Below, piece after piece: positions 10,480 through 61,668 of a DNA stretch of 64,000 bases. The position numbers were made by a program, and so were the translations under genes. Source of the stretch: a virus. The stretch lies in IMG/VR virus record IMGVR_UViG_3300044712_001255, positions 124,001-188,000 of that record. One strand, 5' to 3'. A model generated the notes under the pieces. That model made no database searches and had not been told where the DNA came from. It worked only from the letters and a program-made list of their open reading frames with translations. The first letter of the stretch is position 1; each line of letters starts with the position of its first letter.

Positions 10480-10788
10480 ATGATGCATGAAAATCGCAGC
10501 ACGGCAGAATATGATCGTTACACGATGGAAAATATGAGAGAGTTCGTTGACCTCTTGATGAACGCGCCAGATAATCTTCTTGACGCTTCATTGAAACCAA
10601 AGATTGGTGCGTGGTCAGAACCACCTACGTCGCTCCAAATCTTGGAAGTGTTGGATTTTGCAATTCGCGGCGCGTTGGCAAGCAGCGTCGTGGTATCTGT
10701 GCTGGAGTCTGTCTATTCTCAGCGTCTCGATGAAGAGAAGACGACTCATGAAGAAGTAGTGAAGAATGCAATGTGGAGAAATCAATGA
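10480..10788 (+). CDS. Unknown 102-residue protein
   Basis: It begins MMHENRSTAEYDRYTMENMR. The start at 10480 is set by the promoter ending 7 nt before; an in-frame ATG at 10429 lies upstream of that promoter. Mostly helical and acidic. Overlaps the following VWA gene in ATGA style, so the two are an operon. No family recognised. Confidence 0.6.
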   Translation: MMHENRSTAEYDRYTMENMREFVDLLMNAPDNLLDASLKPKIGAWSEPPTSLQILEVLDFAIRGALASSVVVSVLESVYSQRLDEEKTTHEEVVKNAMWRNQ

Positions 10789-11459
10789 CTGATAAGAATT
10801 TGACTGAGATTGTGGCTATTCTTGATCGATCCGGGTCTATGTTGGACCTGCGTGCCGATACGATTGGCGGATTCAATAGCTTCGTTGCAGAACAGCGCAA
10901 GGCTGCTGGAATTGCCAAGTTGACATTGGTGCAGTTTGATGACAAGTATCAGACTGACTATGAAGGCGTTGACATCACGGCGTCTCCATTGCTTACCGAA
11001 GAGACGTATGTTCCTCGAGGAAATACGGCACTATTTGATGCAGTTGGGTTGACTATTGCGTCTGTGGGAGAACGTCTTGCGAAGCTTGATGAGTCTCAAA
11101 GGCCGGGACAAGTAATTTTTCTGATCATCACTGATGGGCAGGAGAATGCCTCACGACTGTACAGTTCTGAGAAAGTTCAAGAGATGGTGAAGCATCAAAC
11201 GGAAGTCTATAACTGGACGTTCGTTTTCATGGGTGGTGGAGATCTGACCACGCAGACTGCGCAATCTATCGCGATGGGCATCCCTCAGACGAACTCTTAC
11301 AACTACGGTAATAACGCAGTTGGTACAAGAGCCCTGTATACCACGCTCACGAAGGGCGTATCTAAGCGCCGTGAGGAGCTCACCAGGGGTGTCATTCTGG
11401 GCGCGTGCGATGCAATGCTAGATGCAGATGACAAGGCTGAGCTCCTGAAGAGCAAGTGA
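10785..11459 (+). CDS. VWA-domain protein
   Basis: 224 residues. The three MIDAS motifs are complete: DRSGSM near residue 14, the Thr in GNTALFDAV near 82, and IITDGQENAS near 115. It resembles stand-alone VWA proteins of the TerF/YfbK kind, which bind partners through a metal ion. It is distinct in sequence from the VWA gene at 814. Directly followed by a metallo-beta-lactamase-fold gene; no functional link is known. Confidence 0.85.
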   Translation: MTDKNLTEIVAILDRSGSMLDLRADTIGGFNSFVAEQRKAAGIAKLTLVQFDDKYQTDYEGVDITASPLLTEETYVPRGNTALFDAVGLTIASVGERLAKLDESQRPGQVIFLIITDGQENASRLYSSEKVQEMVKHQTEVYNWTFVFMGGGDLTTQTAQSIAMGIPQTNSYNYGNNAVGTRALYTTLTKGVSKRREELTRGVILGACDAMLDADDKAELLKSK

Positions 11460-15737: not shown

Positions 15738-16286
15738 ATGACTTGTATTATCGGAATTGAACACAATGGGCGTTGTTACGTCGGTGGCGATTCAGCAGGA
15801 ATTTCAAATTATGACGTCACCATCAGGCGTGATGAGAAGGTGTTCACGAACGGCGAATTCGTAATAGGATTTACGTCATCGTTCAGAATGGGCCAAATCC
15901 TACGTTACAGGTTTGATCCACCAAAGCATCATCCCGACCAAGACGTTATGGAATACATGGTTGTCAATTTCATAGATGCTGTGAGGGAAACATTCAAGGC
16001 ATCAGGGTGGACTCCACAAGAAGATACATCAAAGGGTATTGAATGTAGCGGTACGTTCATAGTCGGCTATAAAGGGCGCATTTTTGAGATTGAAGGTGAT
16101 CTTCAGGTATCATCTCCTTCATGTGGAATTGCAACTTGTGGATGTGGCTATGCGCTTGCCCTTGGAGCAATGGACGCATTGTCAGAATACGAACATGACG
16201 TTGAAAACCGTATCAAAAAAGCATTGTCAATTGTGGCAAAGCGAAATTGCGGCGTGCATGCGCCGTTCATCGTAAAGAGCGTGTAG
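15738..16286 (+). CDS. Proteasome-like Ntn hydrolase, copy 1
   Basis: 182 residues starting MTCIIGIEHNGRCYVGGDS. After Met removal Thr2 would be the N-terminal nucleophile. The Asp in GGDS corresponds to Asp17, and the Lys in RRDEKVF to Lys33 of proteasome beta subunits and HslV. The length fits a single beta-type subunit. Two paralogues follow at 16315 and 18900. Possible roles are a peptidase ring or autoproteolytic maturation factor; no unfoldase partner is adjacent (an AAA protein lies at 43963). Confidence 0.7.
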   Translation: MTCIIGIEHNGRCYVGGDSAGISNYDVTIRRDEKVFTNGEFVIGFTSSFRMGQILRYRFDPPKHHPDQDVMEYMVVNFIDAVRETFKASGWTPQEDTSKGIECSGTFIVGYKGRIFEIEGDLQVSSPSCGIATCGCGYALALGAMDALSEYEHDVENRIKKALSIVAKRNCGVHAPFIVKSV

Positions 16287-16314: not shown

Positions 16315-16860
16315 ATGACGTGCATTGTTGGTGTTGTGTATGGAAAGAACGTTTGGCTCGGCGGCGATAGGGCTGCGACGTCTGGTAATCTCAATAGGAC
16401 AATCATCAAAGATCCAAAGGTGTTCGTGAAAGAGAACATTGGATTTGGTGTGTGCGGATTGCCAAAGGTGATGGACACACTGCAATATCACATTGAGATT
16501 CCTGTGTACAATGGCGAAAACGTAAAGACGTATCTTGTGTCATCTGTCATTCCTGCAATTCGCAGTGGGCTCAAGGCGATGGACTGTACGGTTCACCACG
16601 AAGGACAAGATTATTTTGAGGGAGCGATGTTGGTCGCTTTCAATGGTCGTCTCTTTGAACTCGAAGCAAATTTCCAGCTTGTAGAATCAAGCAAGGGGTT
16701 CAATGCAGTTGGATCCGGTGCTGAACCCGCATTGGGGTCGCTAAGGGCAACAAAGGGCAATCCACGAACTCGTCTGCTTCAGGCTTTGCAAACGTCTGCC
16801 GAGAACAATGCAGGCGTGGCTCCACCTTTTGATGTGATTGAGATCAAGCGACAGAAATAA
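16315..16860 (+). CDS. Proteasome-like Ntn hydrolase, copy 2
   Basis: 181 residues starting MTCIVGVVYGKNVWLGGDR, with Thr2, Asp (GGDR) and Lys (KDPKVF) in the positions of the proteasome Thr1/Asp17/Lys33 triad. A later GSGAEPALGS matches the conserved glycine turn of that fold. It is diverged from copies 1 and 3 outside the catalytic parts, so the copies may form mixed complexes or have separate substrates. Confidence 0.7.
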   Translation: MTCIVGVVYGKNVWLGGDRAATSGNLNRTIIKDPKVFVKENIGFGVCGLPKVMDTLQYHIEIPVYNGENVKTYLVSSVIPAIRSGLKAMDCTVHHEGQDYFEGAMLVAFNGRLFELEANFQLVESSKGFNAVGSGAEPALGSLRATKGNPRTRLLQALQTSAENNAGVAPPFDVIEIKRQK

Positions 16861-18899: not shown

Positions 18900-19502
18900 A
18901 TGACATGTGTAGTTGGCTACAAAGATGGCGATGCCATCTATCTTGGGTCTGACAGCTACGTGGGTAGCGTCGAAAATGGCATTCAACATGTCCTGGCAAA
19001 TCCAGAGAAGATCTTTCAAACGGGACAGTTCTTGATTGGTGTCGCGGGTAGCATGCGCATCGGTCAACTTCTTCACCACGGTCTACGCGTCGCAAAGCAG
19101 AGACGTGGTGATTCAGATCAAAAGTACTTAGTGATCAATGTGATGAGTGCCATCAGGTCTTTGTTACAGGAACACTGTCAGTGGGGCTCCGCAGAAGATG
19201 ATTCCGAAGTGGGCATGATGTATGACACTGATTTGATCCTAGCCTACAAGAATCAAATCTACATGATCGACGTAGACCTGCAAGTACAGCAGATCGTAGG
19301 AAACTATGTCTGCATCGGCTCCGGCCGCGAGGTGGCCAATGGTGCTATGTTCGCTTTTGAAAATGGCGATGTTGCAGAAGTAGCTGTATCAGCTCCCGAC
19401 CGCATAAAACTTGCGCTTCAGGCGGCAACGCACCATCAATCTGGTATTTTGCCGCCTTACCATATCATGCAGCTCAAGAACGGTATAGTTTCTAAGGTAT
19501 GA
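18900..19502 (+). CDS. Proteasome-like Ntn hydrolase, copy 3
   Basis: 200 residues from ATG 18900: MTCVVGYKDGDAIYLGSDS, then ANPEKIF. Thr2, Asp and Lys are at the catalytic positions. SMRIGQLL matches copy 1 (SFRMGQIL), so these two are closer to each other than to copy 2. It sits between the TS homologue and thymidine kinase, and its stop overlaps the TK start in ATGA style. Confidence 0.7.
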   Translation: MTCVVGYKDGDAIYLGSDSYVGSVENGIQHVLANPEKIFQTGQFLIGVAGSMRIGQLLHHGLRVAKQRRGDSDQKYLVINVMSAIRSLLQEHCQWGSAEDDSEVGMMYDTDLILAYKNQIYMIDVDLQVQQIVGNYVCIGSGREVANGAMFAFENGDVAEVAVSAPDRIKLALQAATHHQSGILPPYHIMQLKNGIVSKV

Positions 19503-20584: not shown

Positions 20585-21103
20585 ATGGAAACTAACGAGC
20601 GACGGGTCATTCGTATTTTGCGAGAGGAGTATCATAAAAGAACTTCTCGCGCATTGCAAATGATTTACGAAGGCGAAGAGAAAGAATCTAACATCAAGTT
20701 TGATCTAAAGAACGTTGTTAAACCAGGCTTGTCAGTACGCTTACGTAAAGACTACCAGAAATGGAAGAAGGGCGCAGCATTTACTATCAAGTCTGTCGGT
20801 GGAACACACGTTGAACTTGACCCTCCTTCTGAAGAAGCTGTTGAAGCGCCTGGCGCAACAAGCGATCCGATAGGCGTCCCTGTGGCAGCGACGCAATCGT
20901 CTGCGGCGCCGCAAGCCACCAGTAACGCTAGTGATTCTGAAAAGACGACTGAAATGCCACGCAAAGAATCATTGCGCATGTCTTGGCAAGAATTCGATAA
21001 TGACGGTGGTGTTTTTGAGCTTCATGGTGGAGAAGAAGACAAGGACGCTAAAAAACAAGCTGGCTCAGACAAGCAGAAGACCAAGGACGACAAGAATAGT
21101 TAA
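20585..21103 (+). CDS. Probable virion-associated protein, unknown
   Basis: 172 residues: a charged N-terminal helix (METNERRVIRILREEY), a small beta-rich part (VKPGLSVRLRKDYQKWKKG), then a long Ala/Thr/Ser and acidic disordered tail. It opens the block of proteins with (L/I)xE-type N-termini. A structural or internal head role is inferred from composition and context only. Confidence 0.5.
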   Translation: METNERRVIRILREEYHKRTSRALQMIYEGEEKESNIKFDLKNVVKPGLSVRLRKDYQKWKKGAAFTIKSVGGTHVELDPPSEEAVEAPGATSDPIGVPVAATQSSAAPQATSNASDSEKTTEMPRKESLRMSWQEFDNDGGVFELHGGEEDKDAKKQAGSDKQKTKDDKNS

Positions 21104-21112
21104 GGACACGCC

Positions 21113-21838
21113 ATGTCTAACATCGATCTATCAGAAACCGATCTTCAAAAGATTGTAAGCGAGTCACTATCAAAAAGTCTCAGCAAGCATGGCGTTGCGC
21201 CGGCTGAATCAACGAAGTTGTCTGAGGCTTATGTCGTCGATACGAAAACGTATAAGTTGACCACTGACAACTTATCGCAGAAGACTAAGGACGGACACGT
21301 CCAGTTGTATCAGGATTATGTTCGTGTCGCGAACACAGTATCCGCTGAACTTGATTCCACGAATAAAAGTGATGCAAACTCGAGTCACTCGCAGTTCAGG
21401 TCATTGAAGCTGGATGAATCGTACAATCTCAATGCGAAGTGGCTGCACGAGCTGTACTTTTCGAATTGCTTTGATCCAAATAGCGAAATCTTCATGGATT
21501 CGCAAGCGTACATACGCCTTCAGCGCGACTTCGGTACGTTTGAGAACTGGCAGAAAGATTTCATGGCATGTGCAATGTCTGCCGGCGAAGGGTGGGCAGT
21601 CACTGGATGGCATCATTATCTGAAGCGCTACGTCAACACAATTGTCAGTCACCACAGCGGCGACGTGATGATGGGTTTGTATCCTGTGATTGTGCTAGAC
21701 GTTTGGTCACATGCGTATCACAGAGATTACGTTGTAGATCGTAAGAGCTACATTGTTGCAATGATGCGAGAGCTTAATTGGAACACCATTGAAAATCGTT
21801 TCAAGATGTGCGAACGCATGGCAGAGGTGATGAAGTGA
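21113..21838 (+). CDS. Fe/Mn superoxide dismutase-like protein with N-terminal targeting extension
   Basis: 241 residues. From about residue 105 it follows the Fe/Mn-SOD fold: WLHELYF (ligand His112), FGTFENW, GEGWAVTGW, DVWSHAYHRDY (Asp196, His200) and NWNTIENRF. The fourth ligand is unclear; His62 in GHVQLYQDYV is a candidate, one place off the usual position. The dimer-bridging Glu before the last His is Ser. The first 38 residues are an added helical segment ending KLSE|A, like a T4 capsid-targeting peptide. It may be a packaged dismutase or a structural protein reusing the fold. Confidence 0.75.
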   Translation: MSNIDLSETDLQKIVSESLSKSLSKHGVAPAESTKLSEAYVVDTKTYKLTTDNLSQKTKDGHVQLYQDYVRVANTVSAELDSTNKSDANSSHSQFRSLKLDESYNLNAKWLHELYFSNCFDPNSEIFMDSQAYIRLQRDFGTFENWQKDFMACAMSAGEGWAVTGWHHYLKRYVNTIVSHHSGDVMMGLYPVIVLDVWSHAYHRDYVVDRKSYIVAMMRELNWNTIENRFKMCERMAEVMK

Positions 21839-22404
21839 GTAACGCAAAACGTCAGCTTAAGAAGCTCATAGAAGAAATGCGTCACAAGGCGCTCATCTCT
21901 GAGGCAGATGACCCAGCAGCAGAAGATGCGCAGCCAGTTGATGGTAATGATTCTCTTGACGTGCAGGTGGACTCTTACATCGCGTCATATGAAAAAGAAG
22001 CCAGCAATGCAGTGAAAGAAGGCAAGGACTTCAGAGCATTGACACGTCGTCTGATGACAGAAGCAGACGATGAAGAAAAGGACGCAGATGCAGGAGAAGA
22101 CGCTGCAGATGATGCTGCCCCACCACAACCTGCAAAGAAAACAGGCGCTGACTTAGAGGTCCGCACATTTGCAAGTTCTGTTGCACGCTTGATTGAAAAT
22201 GTTGATTCTTTGATTGAATTTCGTAGTACAATCATGCGAAGAGCCAGCAATTTCTTGACGAAGAACTACGATGCGCAGGTGCTACGACAATTTGAGATCA
22301 TCATGGAAGATGAACATGGTATTGCTGCTGGAAAGTCAGCAAAAGATATCGAAGATGATTTCCAAGCGCCTTGGGCAGCACAGTCAGGACCTGGCGGAGG
22401 TTGA
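21835..22404 (+). CDS. Probable virion-internal protein (GTG start)
   Basis: 189 residues from GTG 21835, overlapping the SOD-like gene. The N-terminus NAKRQLKKLIEEMRHKALI ends ISE|A and a second LMTEA occurs near residue 73, both fitting (I/L)xE cleavage. The middle is an acidic, Ala/Pro-rich linker. The C-terminal helical domain (FASSVARLIENVDSL) and Gly-rich end look structural. Confidence 0.55.
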   Translation: MSNAKRQLKKLIEEMRHKALISEADDPAAEDAQPVDGNDSLDVQVDSYIASYEKEASNAVKEGKDFRALTRRLMTEADDEEKDADAGEDAADDAAPPQPAKKTGADLEVRTFASSVARLIENVDSLIEFRSTIMRRASNFLTKNYDAQVLRQFEIIMEDEHGIAAGKSAKDIEDDFQAPWAAQSGPGGG

Positions 22405-23046: not shown

Positions 23047-23463
23047 ATGATTCTTCCTACTTGGCTACAACTTACGTGGGCGTTCATCAAGAAGTACTGG
23101 CAGGTCTTTGCTACTATTGCCGTGTTTGCGTTCATCTACTTTTGGACAAAGTCAAGTTCAACAAGCTTGGCTGAAAAGTTGGCAGCGTTGAACGCGACTC
23201 ATGACGAAGAGATCAAGAAAATCATAGCAGCTCGAGACGAAGAGATAAAGAAGCGTCTTGAAAATGAGGCTCGTTATCAGCAGCAGATAAAGCAAATTCA
23301 AGATCAATACGAAAAGGCCAAGATTGAACTTGATGCTCGCACGAAAAAGCAGGTTGAGACAATCGTCAAAGACTATGGCGATGATGAAGTGAAACTTGCA
23401 GAGCAGATTGCAAAGGTCACTGGGTTCACTCTTGTGATGCCTAATTCTGGAGATAAGAAATGA
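23047..23463 (+). CDS. Membrane-anchored coiled-coil protein (i-spanin-like)
   Basis: 138 residues from ATG 23047. One transmembrane segment (VFATIAVFAFIYFW, residues ~16-32) is followed by a long charged coiled coil and a short globular end. This N-in, C-out layout is that of inner-membrane spanins or other phage membrane coiled coils. The next gene has a signal peptide, so a two-component envelope system is possible. It is far from the endolysin at 40022, which weakens the spanin reading. Confidence 0.5.
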   Translation: MILPTWLQLTWAFIKKYWQVFATIAVFAFIYFWTKSSSTSLAEKLAALNATHDEEIKKIIAARDEEIKKRLENEARYQQQIKQIQDQYEKAKIELDARTKKQVETIVKDYGDDEVKLAEQIAKVTGFTLVMPNSGDKK

Positions 23464-23954
23464 AGAAATTCATAGCATACTGTTTGATTGCGTCAATGCT
23501 GGCGACGTCTTTGCCAACGTACGCGCAAGAACCCGCTGCGAAGTTGCCAACGCCTGCAACGCCTATGTCGCAGGGACGTATCTCTCCCATGACAAAGGGC
23601 GATAAGGCAATCTTTGACGGAATCTTGTTTGATTCTTACGCTGCTGCGTGGCTAATCGTTCAGAAGAAAGACGTTGAAGATCGCATCAAGATAGAGCGAG
23701 ATAACGCAACGGCTATCGAAAAAGCAAAAAGCGTCAAAGATCTTGCTGATGCGAAAGCTTCGTCTACTGCGACGCAAAAAGTGATGCAAGCATCGCTAGA
23801 TGAACGTCAAAAGCGAATTGAGTTGTTGACAAAACAAATCAATGATGATGCAAAAAAGTCTGACCCGCCACTCGTGTTATGGGTTGGGCTTGGCGCAATC
23901 GCAGGAACTCTATTGACATTAGGTACTGTTGCCGTTGTTGGCGCAGTAAAGTAG
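23460..23954 (+). CDS. Secreted/membrane protein with signal peptide
   Basis: 164 residues: signal peptide MKKFIAYCLIASMLATSLPT followed by YAQ, a Pro/Ala linker, a charged helical centre (KAKSVKDLADAKASSTATQK) and a C-terminal transmembrane helix (LVLWVGLGAIAGTLLTLG). This places the body in the periplasm. It overlaps the upstream coiled-coil membrane gene by 4 nt, so they may act together. Confidence 0.6.
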   Translation: MKKFIAYCLIASMLATSLPTYAQEPAAKLPTPATPMSQGRISPMTKGDKAIFDGILFDSYAAAWLIVQKKDVEDRIKIERDNATAIEKAKSVKDLADAKASSTATQKVMQASLDERQKRIELLTKQINDDAKKSDPPLVLWVGLGAIAGTLLTLGTVAVVGAVK

Positions 23955-23962
23955 GAGCACAT

Positions 23963-24295
23963 ATGGATACGAATACAACACCAGAAACACCACCCTCGCC
24001 AGAAGCTACCGTGGCTGCTGAAGTTCAAGAGACGCCAGTTCCGCATGACGCAACGGTTGCGCCGCGTTGGTATTGGATAAAAGACACAAAAGGGTATGGA
24101 TCAGTGACTGTCACGTTGGTCACGATTGCATTTTGGGTGACAACACTGGCATACATCTTGTCCGTATTCCAGAAGATCGGGCCGCTTGAGATACGTCCGT
24201 TTGACACAGCTGCGACGTCAGTTTACTTGATTCCCATCTTGAGTTTATATTTTGGAAGAAAGTTGACTGACGCAAAGTTCAAGCCAGACAAATGA
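23963..24295 (+). CDS. Two-TM membrane protein, holin-like topology
   Basis: 110 residues from ATG 23963 (TAGGAG before it). A Pro/Thr-rich soluble N-terminus of about 45 residues is followed by two hydrophobic segments (VTLVTIAFWVTTLAYILSVF and AATSVYLIPILSLYFG). The size and topology fit a holin, but other small membrane roles are equally possible. Confidence 0.45.
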   Translation: MDTNTTPETPPSPEATVAAEVQETPVPHDATVAPRWYWIKDTKGYGSVTVTLVTIAFWVTTLAYILSVFQKIGPLEIRPFDTAATSVYLIPILSLYFGRKLTDAKFKPDK

Positions 24296-24339: not shown

Positions 24340-25908
24340 ATGCTGCGCGCCGATCCTGATGCCACATTGAGGGAAATGGTAAGAAAAGCCCTAGATGGCA
24401 CGTTGGTCACTGAGCTCTTTGAGCCCGAGGATCCCGTGCATGTCAATGCTGTTATTGACCCACAAGCAGCGCAGACAGACAGACACGACACAAAGTTTTT
24501 GCCTACCAACGGAGTCGAGTTCCAGGTAGCGATTCAGCAGCTAGTTAAAGCATACCCGTCAGCCGACTTCGGAGAGGTGCTCAAGGTGATCAAAGCAACC
24601 TTGGAGAAGGCTCAGGAACAAAACACCGACCGAGGAGACCCAAAAATGAACAAGCAACAGGCAGCAGAAGCACTTATTCGTAAGCGAGTACGTCAAATCA
24701 TTCGCGAGGCGATGGCAGCAAACGATCCCCGCCGCAGGGCAGGATCAAAGAAGTTGCCGCCGGGTTACGCAGAGCATCTGCCCGATGCAGTACGTTCAGC
24801 GGGACTTGAAGCTCCTGGATCAATTGCTGCACATCTTCCTGATGATGTCAAGCATGATCTTGCGATGGTTCGTAAGGGCCTCGAAGGCATGGGAGACGAA
24901 GACGCAGATGCACTCAAGAGGGTCGCAGCTGCCGGTAAGAATGTTCGTGGTAGCAAGGTGAACGATGAGCAAGCGCAGCAAATTATTGCCGCTCTTGGCG
25001 ATGAAGACCTTGGAATGAGCCAGTTCATGAACCTTGATAAGGCAACGAAGATGCGTTTCTTTGTCATCATGTACCTTACAAACAAGGACCGTAGCTTCTT
25101 CCAGCGCTGCGTTGATGATTATATTGCCGAGCTCGAAGATCAGTGGACAACTGCAAATCAGCAAGAGGCAGGCGACGACAAGGCTCTGCTGGCGCAGCTG
25201 AATCAGGAAATGATGGATGGCATCGATGAAATCGAAGCTGCGATTTCTGCAGACCCGTCTGTTTCTGAAGGGTTCAGCGACTTTGTTCAGAAGGAAGTCA
25301 CAGACACAATCAATGAGATGAGTCCTGAACAGTGGAAGGATCTCGTTGATAGGGCAAAGAAGGGATTCGAAGGCGTTCCTGGTGGTGTATCACCTGAGAA
25401 CATTGAGAATCTCCGCACGTGGATCTCTCGACGTGGTAACTGGCTCAAGCCAGGTGGGTCGCTCGATCGTTCCCGTCCACTGCCCCCTGCCGCGATTGCT
25501 GACCCTGCGCCCCCAAGCACAAGAGGCCCGGCTTCCACACCCACTCCTTCGGCGGCTACCGGCGCGGAACCTGATGACATGATGTCTGACGATGACTTCA
25601 AGGCATTTGCAAATGATCTTGCGTGGGACAAGCGTCGTAATGCGGTGATGAACGCTCGACCAAAGTCGTTAGCTAAGAAAACTGGTGACACGTCTGTGCC
25701 TGATTGGTCACCAACATCTAAATTAAAATCTGAACCGAATGTAAATTTAGACGATTCAAGCGATCCTATAGTGAGAAAAGCTATGTCTATGATGTTTGCG
25801 CATGATAGTTCAATAGAAGATATAGCGAAACAAACGAAGTTGTCACCTTCGCAAATTCGTCAAATAGCAGTGAAAAACGGGATTGATCCCGATGGGCTTG
25901 ACTTTTAA
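24340..25908 (+). CDS. Large probable virion-internal protein with possible internal start
   Basis: 522 residues. At 24646, in frame, an ATG preceded by GAGGAG begins MNKQQAAEALIRKRVRQII followed by REA, a targeting-type N-terminus ending (I)RE|A. The true or a second start may therefore be there (420 residues). The body is helical and Met/Asp-rich with a Pro-rich linker (residues ~375-410). The last 45 residues (SSIEDIAKQTKLSPSQIRQI) look like a helix-turn-helix. The first 102 residues may be an independent domain. Function unknown. Confidence 0.55.
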   Translation: MLRADPDATLREMVRKALDGTLVTELFEPEDPVHVNAVIDPQAAQTDRHDTKFLPTNGVEFQVAIQQLVKAYPSADFGEVLKVIKATLEKAQEQNTDRGDPKMNKQQAAEALIRKRVRQIIREAMAANDPRRRAGSKKLPPGYAEHLPDAVRSAGLEAPGSIAAHLPDDVKHDLAMVRKGLEGMGDEDADALKRVAAAGKNVRGSKVNDEQAQQIIAALGDEDLGMSQFMNLDKATKMRFFVIMYLTNKDRSFFQRCVDDYIAELEDQWTTANQQEAGDDKALLAQLNQEMMDGIDEIEAAISADPSVSEGFSDFVQKEVTDTINEMSPEQWKDLVDRAKKGFEGVPGGVSPENIENLRTWISRRGNWLKPGGSLDRSRPLPPAAIADPAPPSTRGPASTPTPSAATGAEPDDMMSDDDFKAFANDLAWDKRRNAVMNARPKSLAKKTGDTSVPDWSPTSKLKSEPNVNLDDSSDPIVRKAMSMMFAHDSSIEDIAKQTKLSPSQIRQIAVKNGIDPDGLDF

Positions 25909-26311
25909 GCTGCGTGATCTAATGTATAAATCTTTGGTCTCCGAGGCGCGAATCACAGTACCATCTAGGTACCCGATCGTGCCTCGTGACCAAGACGCCC
26001 CCATAACAACGTCAAATCGTTGGACGTTGCTTGACACGGGTGCTGCTCAACATCTACAAAAGACGTACGAGTTTCATGATGCATTTGCTCGTAATCGTTT
26101 TGTAGATGAGCTGTTTGCGTATGAAGAAAAGAAGGGTCACAGATCGCAGATAACGACGCAGTATCGTCAAGAGACGCCCAACTACATTGTGAAAGTTGAA
26201 GTATTCACGCCTGGAGTTGACGTCACCACAAATCTTGATAAAGAATATGCTCGTTACGCCGATGTACTGTGGCGTGACCTATGTTATGATATCCTGCATG
26301 TCGCAGGATGA
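25892..26311 (+). CDS. Pterin-4a-carbinolamine dehydratase-like protein with targeting-type N-terminus
   Basis: 139 residues from ATG 25892. The first 20 residues (MGLTFKLRDLMYKSLVSEAR) are helical and end VSE|A. The rest follows the PCD/DCoH pattern: WTLL, an aromatic strand (KTYEFHDAFARNRFVDEL), GHRSQIT in place of HHP, and YIVKVEVFTPGVDVTT, then D..YARYAD. The catalytic HH pair is reduced to one His, so dehydratase activity is doubtful and the fold may serve another role. Confidence 0.5.
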   Translation: MGLTFKLRDLMYKSLVSEARITVPSRYPIVPRDQDAPITTSNRWTLLDTGAAQHLQKTYEFHDAFARNRFVDELFAYEEKKGHRSQITTQYRQETPNYIVKVEVFTPGVDVTTNLDKEYARYADVLWRDLCYDILHVAG

Positions 26312-61234: not shown

Positions 61235-61668
61235 TGCAAAAGTACAGCATTCATTCGATCTCGTGTATTGATGGTGACGAGATCGTTCCGGGTGCAATGG
61301 TATGTCATTACATTGATCCGCTTTCTCGTGGCATGGTGGTATGGGTTGTTGATAACGATTGTGGTGTTGTCTGGAGCAAAGAACCCGTCAATCCTCTAGA
61401 CGGCATTTTCACAAAAATAAAGCCCGTTGGTATGTCAACAATCGCACAGCAGCTATGTTCTGTGCAACCTATGTCATTGCCCAGCGGATTGATATTCTAC
61501 ATTGATTACCAGTATGGCAAGAAAGTTGCAGATGGAAAGAATGACAAGCGCAGCAAATGCGCTCATTGGGGTAGAAGATCCTACATGCGAGATCGTACCC
61601 GGGATGCTCGTGAGTTCCCGTGCAGACGCAGGAAGTCTCGGCTTAGTAATCTCAGTATGCGAAAATAA
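61234..61668 (+). CDS. PGxxV...VLW small protein, tandem copy 1
   Basis: 144 residues from ATG 61234 (TAATG with the previous stop). DGDEIVPGAMVCHYIDPLSR then GVVWSKEP is the shared core of four tandem genes. The last 50 residues are Arg-rich and overlap copy 2 in another frame by about 155 nt. That tail is probably accidental readthrough after loss of an earlier stop. Function unknown. Confidence 0.55.
   Translation: MQKYSIHSISCIDGDEIVPGAMVCHYIDPLSRGMVVWVVDNDCGVVWSKEPVNPLDGIFTKIKPVGMSTIAQQLCSVQPMSLPSGLIFYIDYQYGKKVADGKNDKRSKCAHWGRRSYMRDRTRDAREFPCRRRKSRLSNLSMRK

Follow-up and report, generated by a model that had tools for sequence, protein, structure and literature searches.

What an SOD-like protein does in a phage of the T4 type, and whether its enzymatic activity is the reason that it is kept, is the question raised by one gene of the DNA analyzed here. 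This DNA (hereafter the window) is 64,000 nt long and corresponds to positions 124001-188000 of a 324,468-base virus record, IMGVR_UViG_3300044712_001255. An earlier note, made from the sequence alone, described a superoxide dismutase (SOD) homologue within a block of virion-protein-like genes. It proposed either a packaged SOD, protecting DNA or blunting an oxidative host response on entry, or a fold that has become structural.

The gene and its genome setting

A single 241-aa ORF was read from the sequence at exactly 21113-21838 on the + strand, as the earlier note had placed it. Its start has a Shine-Dalgarno-like element, and its stop overlaps the start of the next gene by 4 nt. By profile search, the genome was found to encode a prohead protease of the T4 gp21 type (PF03420, E = 3.7e-26). 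The genome also encodes a gp23-type capsid protein, and a head cluster around C1:34-47 kb contains terminase- and scaffold-like genes, both named by eye. Based on these three features of its gene content, the virus was assigned to the T4-related giant tailed phages.

The ORF encodes an Fe/Mn-SOD homologue

The C-terminal part of the protein matched Pfam Sod_Fe_C (E = 1.2e-19; 70.7 bits against a cut-off of 20.9), and the N-terminal hairpin domain, Sod_Fe_N, scored 15.6 bits (cut-off 27). The NCBIfam model for halobacterial Mn-SOD covered residues 62-234 with an E-value of 2e-26, well under its equivalog cut-off. In phmmer, the best solved relative was the Aquifex pyrophilus Fe-SOD (PDB 1coj; E = 5.8e-24, residues 55-240). 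The phage protein resembles this enzyme in full-domain sequence, in fold (TM 0.87), in the four metal ligands and in an outer-sphere His. Residues 55-118 align with the Aquifex SOD, and both helices of the N-terminal domain were present in the AlphaFold model of the window protein. That model, for which 52 aligned homologues were used as input, had a pLDDT of 92.4 and a pTM of 0.81, and was grouped by Foldseek with Fe/Mn-SODs (target TM up to 0.88). Both an SOD profile match and a two-domain SOD fold were thus found for the presumed mature protein (residues 39-241; 21227-21835, +), and ORF 21113-21838 is a true Fe/Mn-SOD homologue. The likeness had been described earlier for the 135 C-terminal residues. 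The Sod_Fe_C match agrees with this, but the likeness is wider, covering residues 55-240 in comparison with the Aquifex enzyme. Structure prediction, which had been proposed as a check, returned a complete SOD fold and not a fold unlike SOD.

The metal site is intact in the window protein, and the bridging Glu is replaced

Active-site residues were counted in an alignment of the first 60 phage homologues. The metal ligands His, His, Asp and His correspond by alignment to His62 (codon 21296-21298, +), His112 (21446-21448, +), Asp196 (21698-21700, +) and His200 (21710-21712, +). They were present in 59, 59, 60 and 59 of the 60 sequences, respectively, and all four were intact in 59/60. His112, Asp196 and His200 had already been recognized as ligands, and the alignment with SODs agreed. 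The same note took the fourth ligand to be displaced, and this was rejected as a misreading. His62 is in place: in the alignment it takes the position of the first SOD ligand (His26 type), and one residue is deleted after it, leaving the distance between His62 and the gateway Tyr one residue short.

The same spacing (H-xx-LY-xx-YV) also occurs in bacterial SODs that retain the bridging Glu. In a bacterial SOD clade found via a MAG, some members have H-Y-E-(I/V)-L-Y-x-G-Y-V and others H-Y-K-L-Y-x-G-Y-V; the latter carry the same one-residue deletion. Because the SOD residues of these members are otherwise ordinary, the first ligand was considered present in the window protein, and its conservation among the phage homologues is in line with this. 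The phage protein is like the bacterial LHELYF/YEHAYF SOD clade (L109-L125, phylum of MAG G029) in the loss of the gateway His30 and, for part of that clade, in the one-residue deletion. The His30 position is deleted or Leu in the window protein. Since this His is also absent from the bacterial sister clade, its loss, judged from the sequences, probably predates uptake of the gene by phages. At the outer-sphere position, in place of Gln143/146, stands His181 (codon 21653-21655, +), the counterpart by alignment of a His in the Aquifex and archaeal enzymes; it is His in 53/60 and Asn in 6/60 of the homologues.

The dimer-bridging Glu, on the other hand, is Ser199 in the window protein (codon 21707-21709, +), as had been noticed before. 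Across the aligned family Ser199 is not a general trait: the position is E in 28, Q in 16, H in 8, S in 5 and A in 3 of the 60 homologues, and about seven E/non-E changes were counted on the tree. Given Ser199, the window protein was filed as an SOD homologue and not as a proven SOD enzyme. In E. coli MnSOD, replacing the bridging Glu with Ala abolished activity, and substitutions in human MnSOD left 5-25% activity (PMC9208312). Since such mutants lose most or all of their activity, slow dismutation is what may fairly be expected of the window protein. The missing gateway His30 is likewise a change that lowers or eliminates activity in other SODs. With its metal site intact, dismutation is possible, but doubtful at full rate.

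Conserved ligands beside interface residues for tuning dismutation that are lost or variable (His30, the bridging Glu, the second Tyr) could also describe a metalloprotein that is packaged but acts otherwise than by dismutation, for instance in metal delivery, in peroxide chemistry or in handling DNA-bound iron. However, no positive sign of another chemistry was seen in the sequence, and the other SOD residues are retained in bacterial relatives that have lost His30 as well, so that we regard this explanation as very improbable.

The protein belongs to a family of uncultured giant phages

The search of IMG/VR gave 69 viral loci, with further ones added later, many of them on contigs of 100-370 kb. 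The homologue set comprised about 69 distinct phage proteins, 68 of them with a complete N-terminus. Two weak, unannotated matches and nothing more were obtained from the named phage records searched, and no cultured phage homologue with proteomics was found. All four ligands were kept in 63/69 distinct homologues, at a divergence down to about 38% identity. In the tree, the phage sequences together with the untagged viral L084 were set apart from bacterial SODs with a support of 0.999; for the tagged phages without L084, node support was low (0.24). A single acquisition of the SOD gene by phages is the simplest reading of this tree. C-terminal extensions of some 40-90 residues were observed on L045, L052, L064, L072, L077, L081 and other homologues.

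An N-terminal tag ends in a presumed prohead-protease site

Residues 1-38 (MSNIDLSETDLQKIVSESLSKSLSKHGVAPAESTKLSE; 21113-21226, +), with a predicted helix at residues 8-25, form the 38-residue tag recognized in the earlier note. It ends in LSE/A (residues 36-39; codons 36-41 at 21218-21235, +), presumably cut after Glu38. The T4 consensus cleavage site is (L/I)xE/(A/G/S)-like. A junction of the form [LIV]xE/[ASG] ended the tag in all 68 distinct phage homologues with a complete N-terminus, against a background of 0.33% per position for [LIV]xE[ASG] in the rest of the proteins. The tag itself varied in length (21-61 residues) and in sequence, with a mean majority-residue frequency of 0.27 over residues 1-33 vs 0.65 in the SOD domain. 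No tag is present in the bacterial sister clade, in the viral outgroup L084 or in the Aquifex SOD; the Aquifex and bacterial proteins further differ from the phage protein in keeping the bridging Glu.

The gp21-type protease was found in 13/13 records of SOD-bearing relatives of at least 137 kb, and the SOD-bearing records without it were all of at most 129 kb and probably incomplete. In the window phage, sites of fitting place were also found in the gp23-type capsid protein (LLE/S) and in gp21 (LNE/S). A presumed propeptide site of the gp21-processed type and a cognate protease are thus encoded in one genome.

In T4, the internal proteins (IPs) and Alt have N-terminal capsid-targeting propeptides that gp21 cleaves off within the prohead, and foreign proteins can be brought into heads by means of the capsid-targeting sequence (PMC7411985, PMC3012670, PMC9958956). 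According to PMC5694885, the cut is made after Glu. The phage protein is like IPI-III and Alt in its short presumed N-terminal propeptide, Glu-ending cleavage-type motif and accompanying gp21-type protease. It differs from them in its cargo, an SOD fold, and in its tag of 21-61 vs about 10-20 residues. Motif and context fit a capsid-targeting propeptide, and by analogy with T4 we infer that the prohead takes up the SOD-fold protein and that cleavage follows after Glu38. The tag motif was also counted in the rest of the window block, where its enrichment (7/19 other N-termini vs 4/19 internally) was too weak to be used as evidence; the capsid-targeting argument consequently rests on the SOD-fold family.

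A cytosolic SOD that guards the host cell during infection, encoded by an ordinary auxiliary metabolic gene and with an N-terminus unrelated to packaging, would agree with the intact metal site, and phage SODs have been reported as auxiliary genes (e.g., PMC12542629). Such a protein would hardly be expected to have an invariant junction Glu (68/68) at the end of a variable tag. The untagged bacterial relatives, the co-occurrence of gp21 and the tag retained by members without metal ligands also speak against it, and we consider it improbable. Of the packaged SOD proposed in the earlier note, packaging is well supported by inference from the junction, the gp21-type protease, the capsid-protein site and a tagged partner gene; dismutation at full rate is the part in doubt. 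The analysis turned up nothing that bears on an oxidative response of the host at entry.

A lineage without metal ligands keeps the tagged fold

Metal ligands were lost in six sequences of one lineage, five of which lack all three His. L066 has Arg62, Gln112, Gly200, Ala181 and Tyr161. A search with L066 gave L139, L140 and L141, which show the same losses at 74-85% identity. All three His are replaced in L145, and His200 and His181 are lost in L143. L148 keeps all ligands and has lost two gateway-helix Tyr. The ligand-less sequences and L148 formed one clade with a support of 0.998, or 0.951 when active-site columns were left out.

Every member of the lineage has the tag and a cleavage-type site. 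The ligand-less genes lie at the same locus, with one SOD-fold gene per record, and no second SOD gene that might compensate was found in these records, including one of 284 kb. The gp21-type protease was present in the three longest records of the lineage. The dN values were 0.11-0.21 with synonymous change saturated, similar to those of metal-site-bearing members. A model of L140 kept the SOD fold (pLDDT 89, TM 0.88 to 1coj). Because fold, tag, single-copy locus and constraint are all kept, the sequences and the model indicate that selection holds the tagged fold without a metal site in this lineage, a new finding beyond the earlier note. The same four features make it probable that dismutation is not the only role of the protein in the head; the further role either adds to the ancestral SOD activity or replaces it. 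The ancestral activity of the family was probably slow.

This lineage also argues for a purely structural protein, that is, an SOD fold taken over for an internal core or scaffold-binding function, whose metal site is a structural relic in most members. The repeated loss of the bridging Glu and the new conserved positions Trp146 and Gln147 point in the same direction. However, four ligands in 63/69 and His181 in 53/60 are more than would be expected of a relic, which makes this account unlikely. The earlier suggestion that the fold has become structural therefore suits the ligand-less side branch but not the window protein itself.

Proposed function

The reading that we prefer, with a probability of roughly 0.6, is an internal head protein of SOD fold that in most phages binds metal and perhaps works as a slow dismutase, and that has in addition a non-catalytic role which suffices in one lineage. 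The gene product would be the precursor of this head protein. Its N-terminal tag would dock it in the prohead core, where the gp21-type protease would cut it after Glu38. The mature protein would remain in the head with the DNA and from there could reach the next host by ejection. For the window phage and the majority of its relatives, the complete Fe/Mn site would probably bind metal and perhaps support slow SOD activity, and the metal-bound protein may protect packaged or incoming DNA. A non-catalytic job in the head, through contacts with the core, the DNA or a partner, would be the only one left in the ligand-less lineage after loss of the metal site. To our knowledge, no SOD is among the T4 internal proteins.

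A more far-reaching proposal, which we put forward tentatively and would not bet on, is that giant tailed phages captured the SOD fold once, gave it a capsid-targeting propeptide and made it an internal head protein whose main conserved function lies elsewhere than in dismutation. In that case the metal site would be optional. It would have decayed stepwise in one lineage: L148 would mark the loss of the gateway Tyr residues, L143 the subsequent loss of His200 and His181, and L145 and the L066/L139/L140/L141 group the final loss of all three His, with strong selection acting on the packaged fold throughout.

Comparison with known viral SODs

Two proteins of uncultured Caudovirales in BFVD, A0A6J5L953 and A0A6J5L7W0, have an Fe/Mn-SOD fold and the automatically assigned name 'superoxide dismutase', with 18-19% identity. 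Poxvirus SOD homologues have a different (Cu/Zn) fold. A viral SOD homologue of this kind, such as that of lumpy skin disease virus, is reported to have been studied by deletion (PMC7712962). The chlorovirus protein PBCV-1 A245R, a Cu/Zn SOD, is packaged in the virion, and its activity was shown (PMC7019647). A245R and the Megavirus Cu/Zn SOD are virus-encoded SODs as well, but their Cu/Zn fold is unrelated and they belong to eukaryotic viruses.

No description of the present family was found in the open-access literature searched, where phage SODs appeared as auxiliary genes only and packaged SODs were those of eukaryotic viruses only. Coverage was partial, and the novelty of a packaged phage SOD-fold family is therefore provisional. 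If the preferred reading is true, tailed phages have a packaged SOD-fold family that is widespread in uncultured giant phages and went unseen because it is nearly absent from cultured phage records. Since metal-site and ligand-less versions share a locus in related phages, they offer a natural comparison for asking which role the SOD fold plays in the phage head, and whether phages carry antioxidant protection with their DNA.

Neighboring genes and other observations in the window

The downstream partner (189 aa; 21835-22404, +) has an N-terminus ending in LISE/A, and a homologue lies directly downstream in 51 contigs of relatives. These homologues often have an N-terminal site of the (L/F)xE type, along with the motif D-S-(L/V/I)-D-x-Q-(I/V)-D. 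The upstream partner (172 aa; 20585-21103, +) has an N-terminal helix, RILREEYHKR, followed by a short region like the upstream gene of relatives ((V/I)RHK...EYT). A gene in the same place was seen in many relatives, with a weak likeness by eye and a single BLAST match. Family searches with the downstream and upstream partners matched nothing.

At 25892-26311 (+), a 139-aa protein with an N-terminal LVSE/A site matched Pterin_4a (PCD/DCoH fold, 7e-6). Its relatives are located close to the SOD gene on about 21 contigs, with the first His of HHP conserved and the second variable. From its sequence, this may be another case of an enzyme fold put to use in the head. A 38-residue piece of a gp23-type major capsid protein (CSVQPMSLPSGLIFYIDYQYGKK; PF07068, 1.2e-7) was found at 61435-61548 (+) within an unrelated 150-aa ORF.

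Three related ORFs at 15738-16286, 16315-16860 and 18900-19502 (all +) start with MTC(I/V)(I/V)G and may encode Ntn-hydrolase-like proteins; one of them gave a weak proteasome-subunit match (0.0066, below the cut-off). Next to them lie genes resembling thymidylate synthase and thymidine kinase, the latter identified by eye. Proteins with a von Willebrand factor A domain are encoded at two places, 814-1926 (+; 3.7e-8) and 10785-11459 (+; 0.0016, below the cut-off). Three small membrane or secreted proteins are encoded at 23047-24295 (+), in the same place in 22-28 relatives, and the first of them resembles Rz-like spanins (PHROG, 6e-4).
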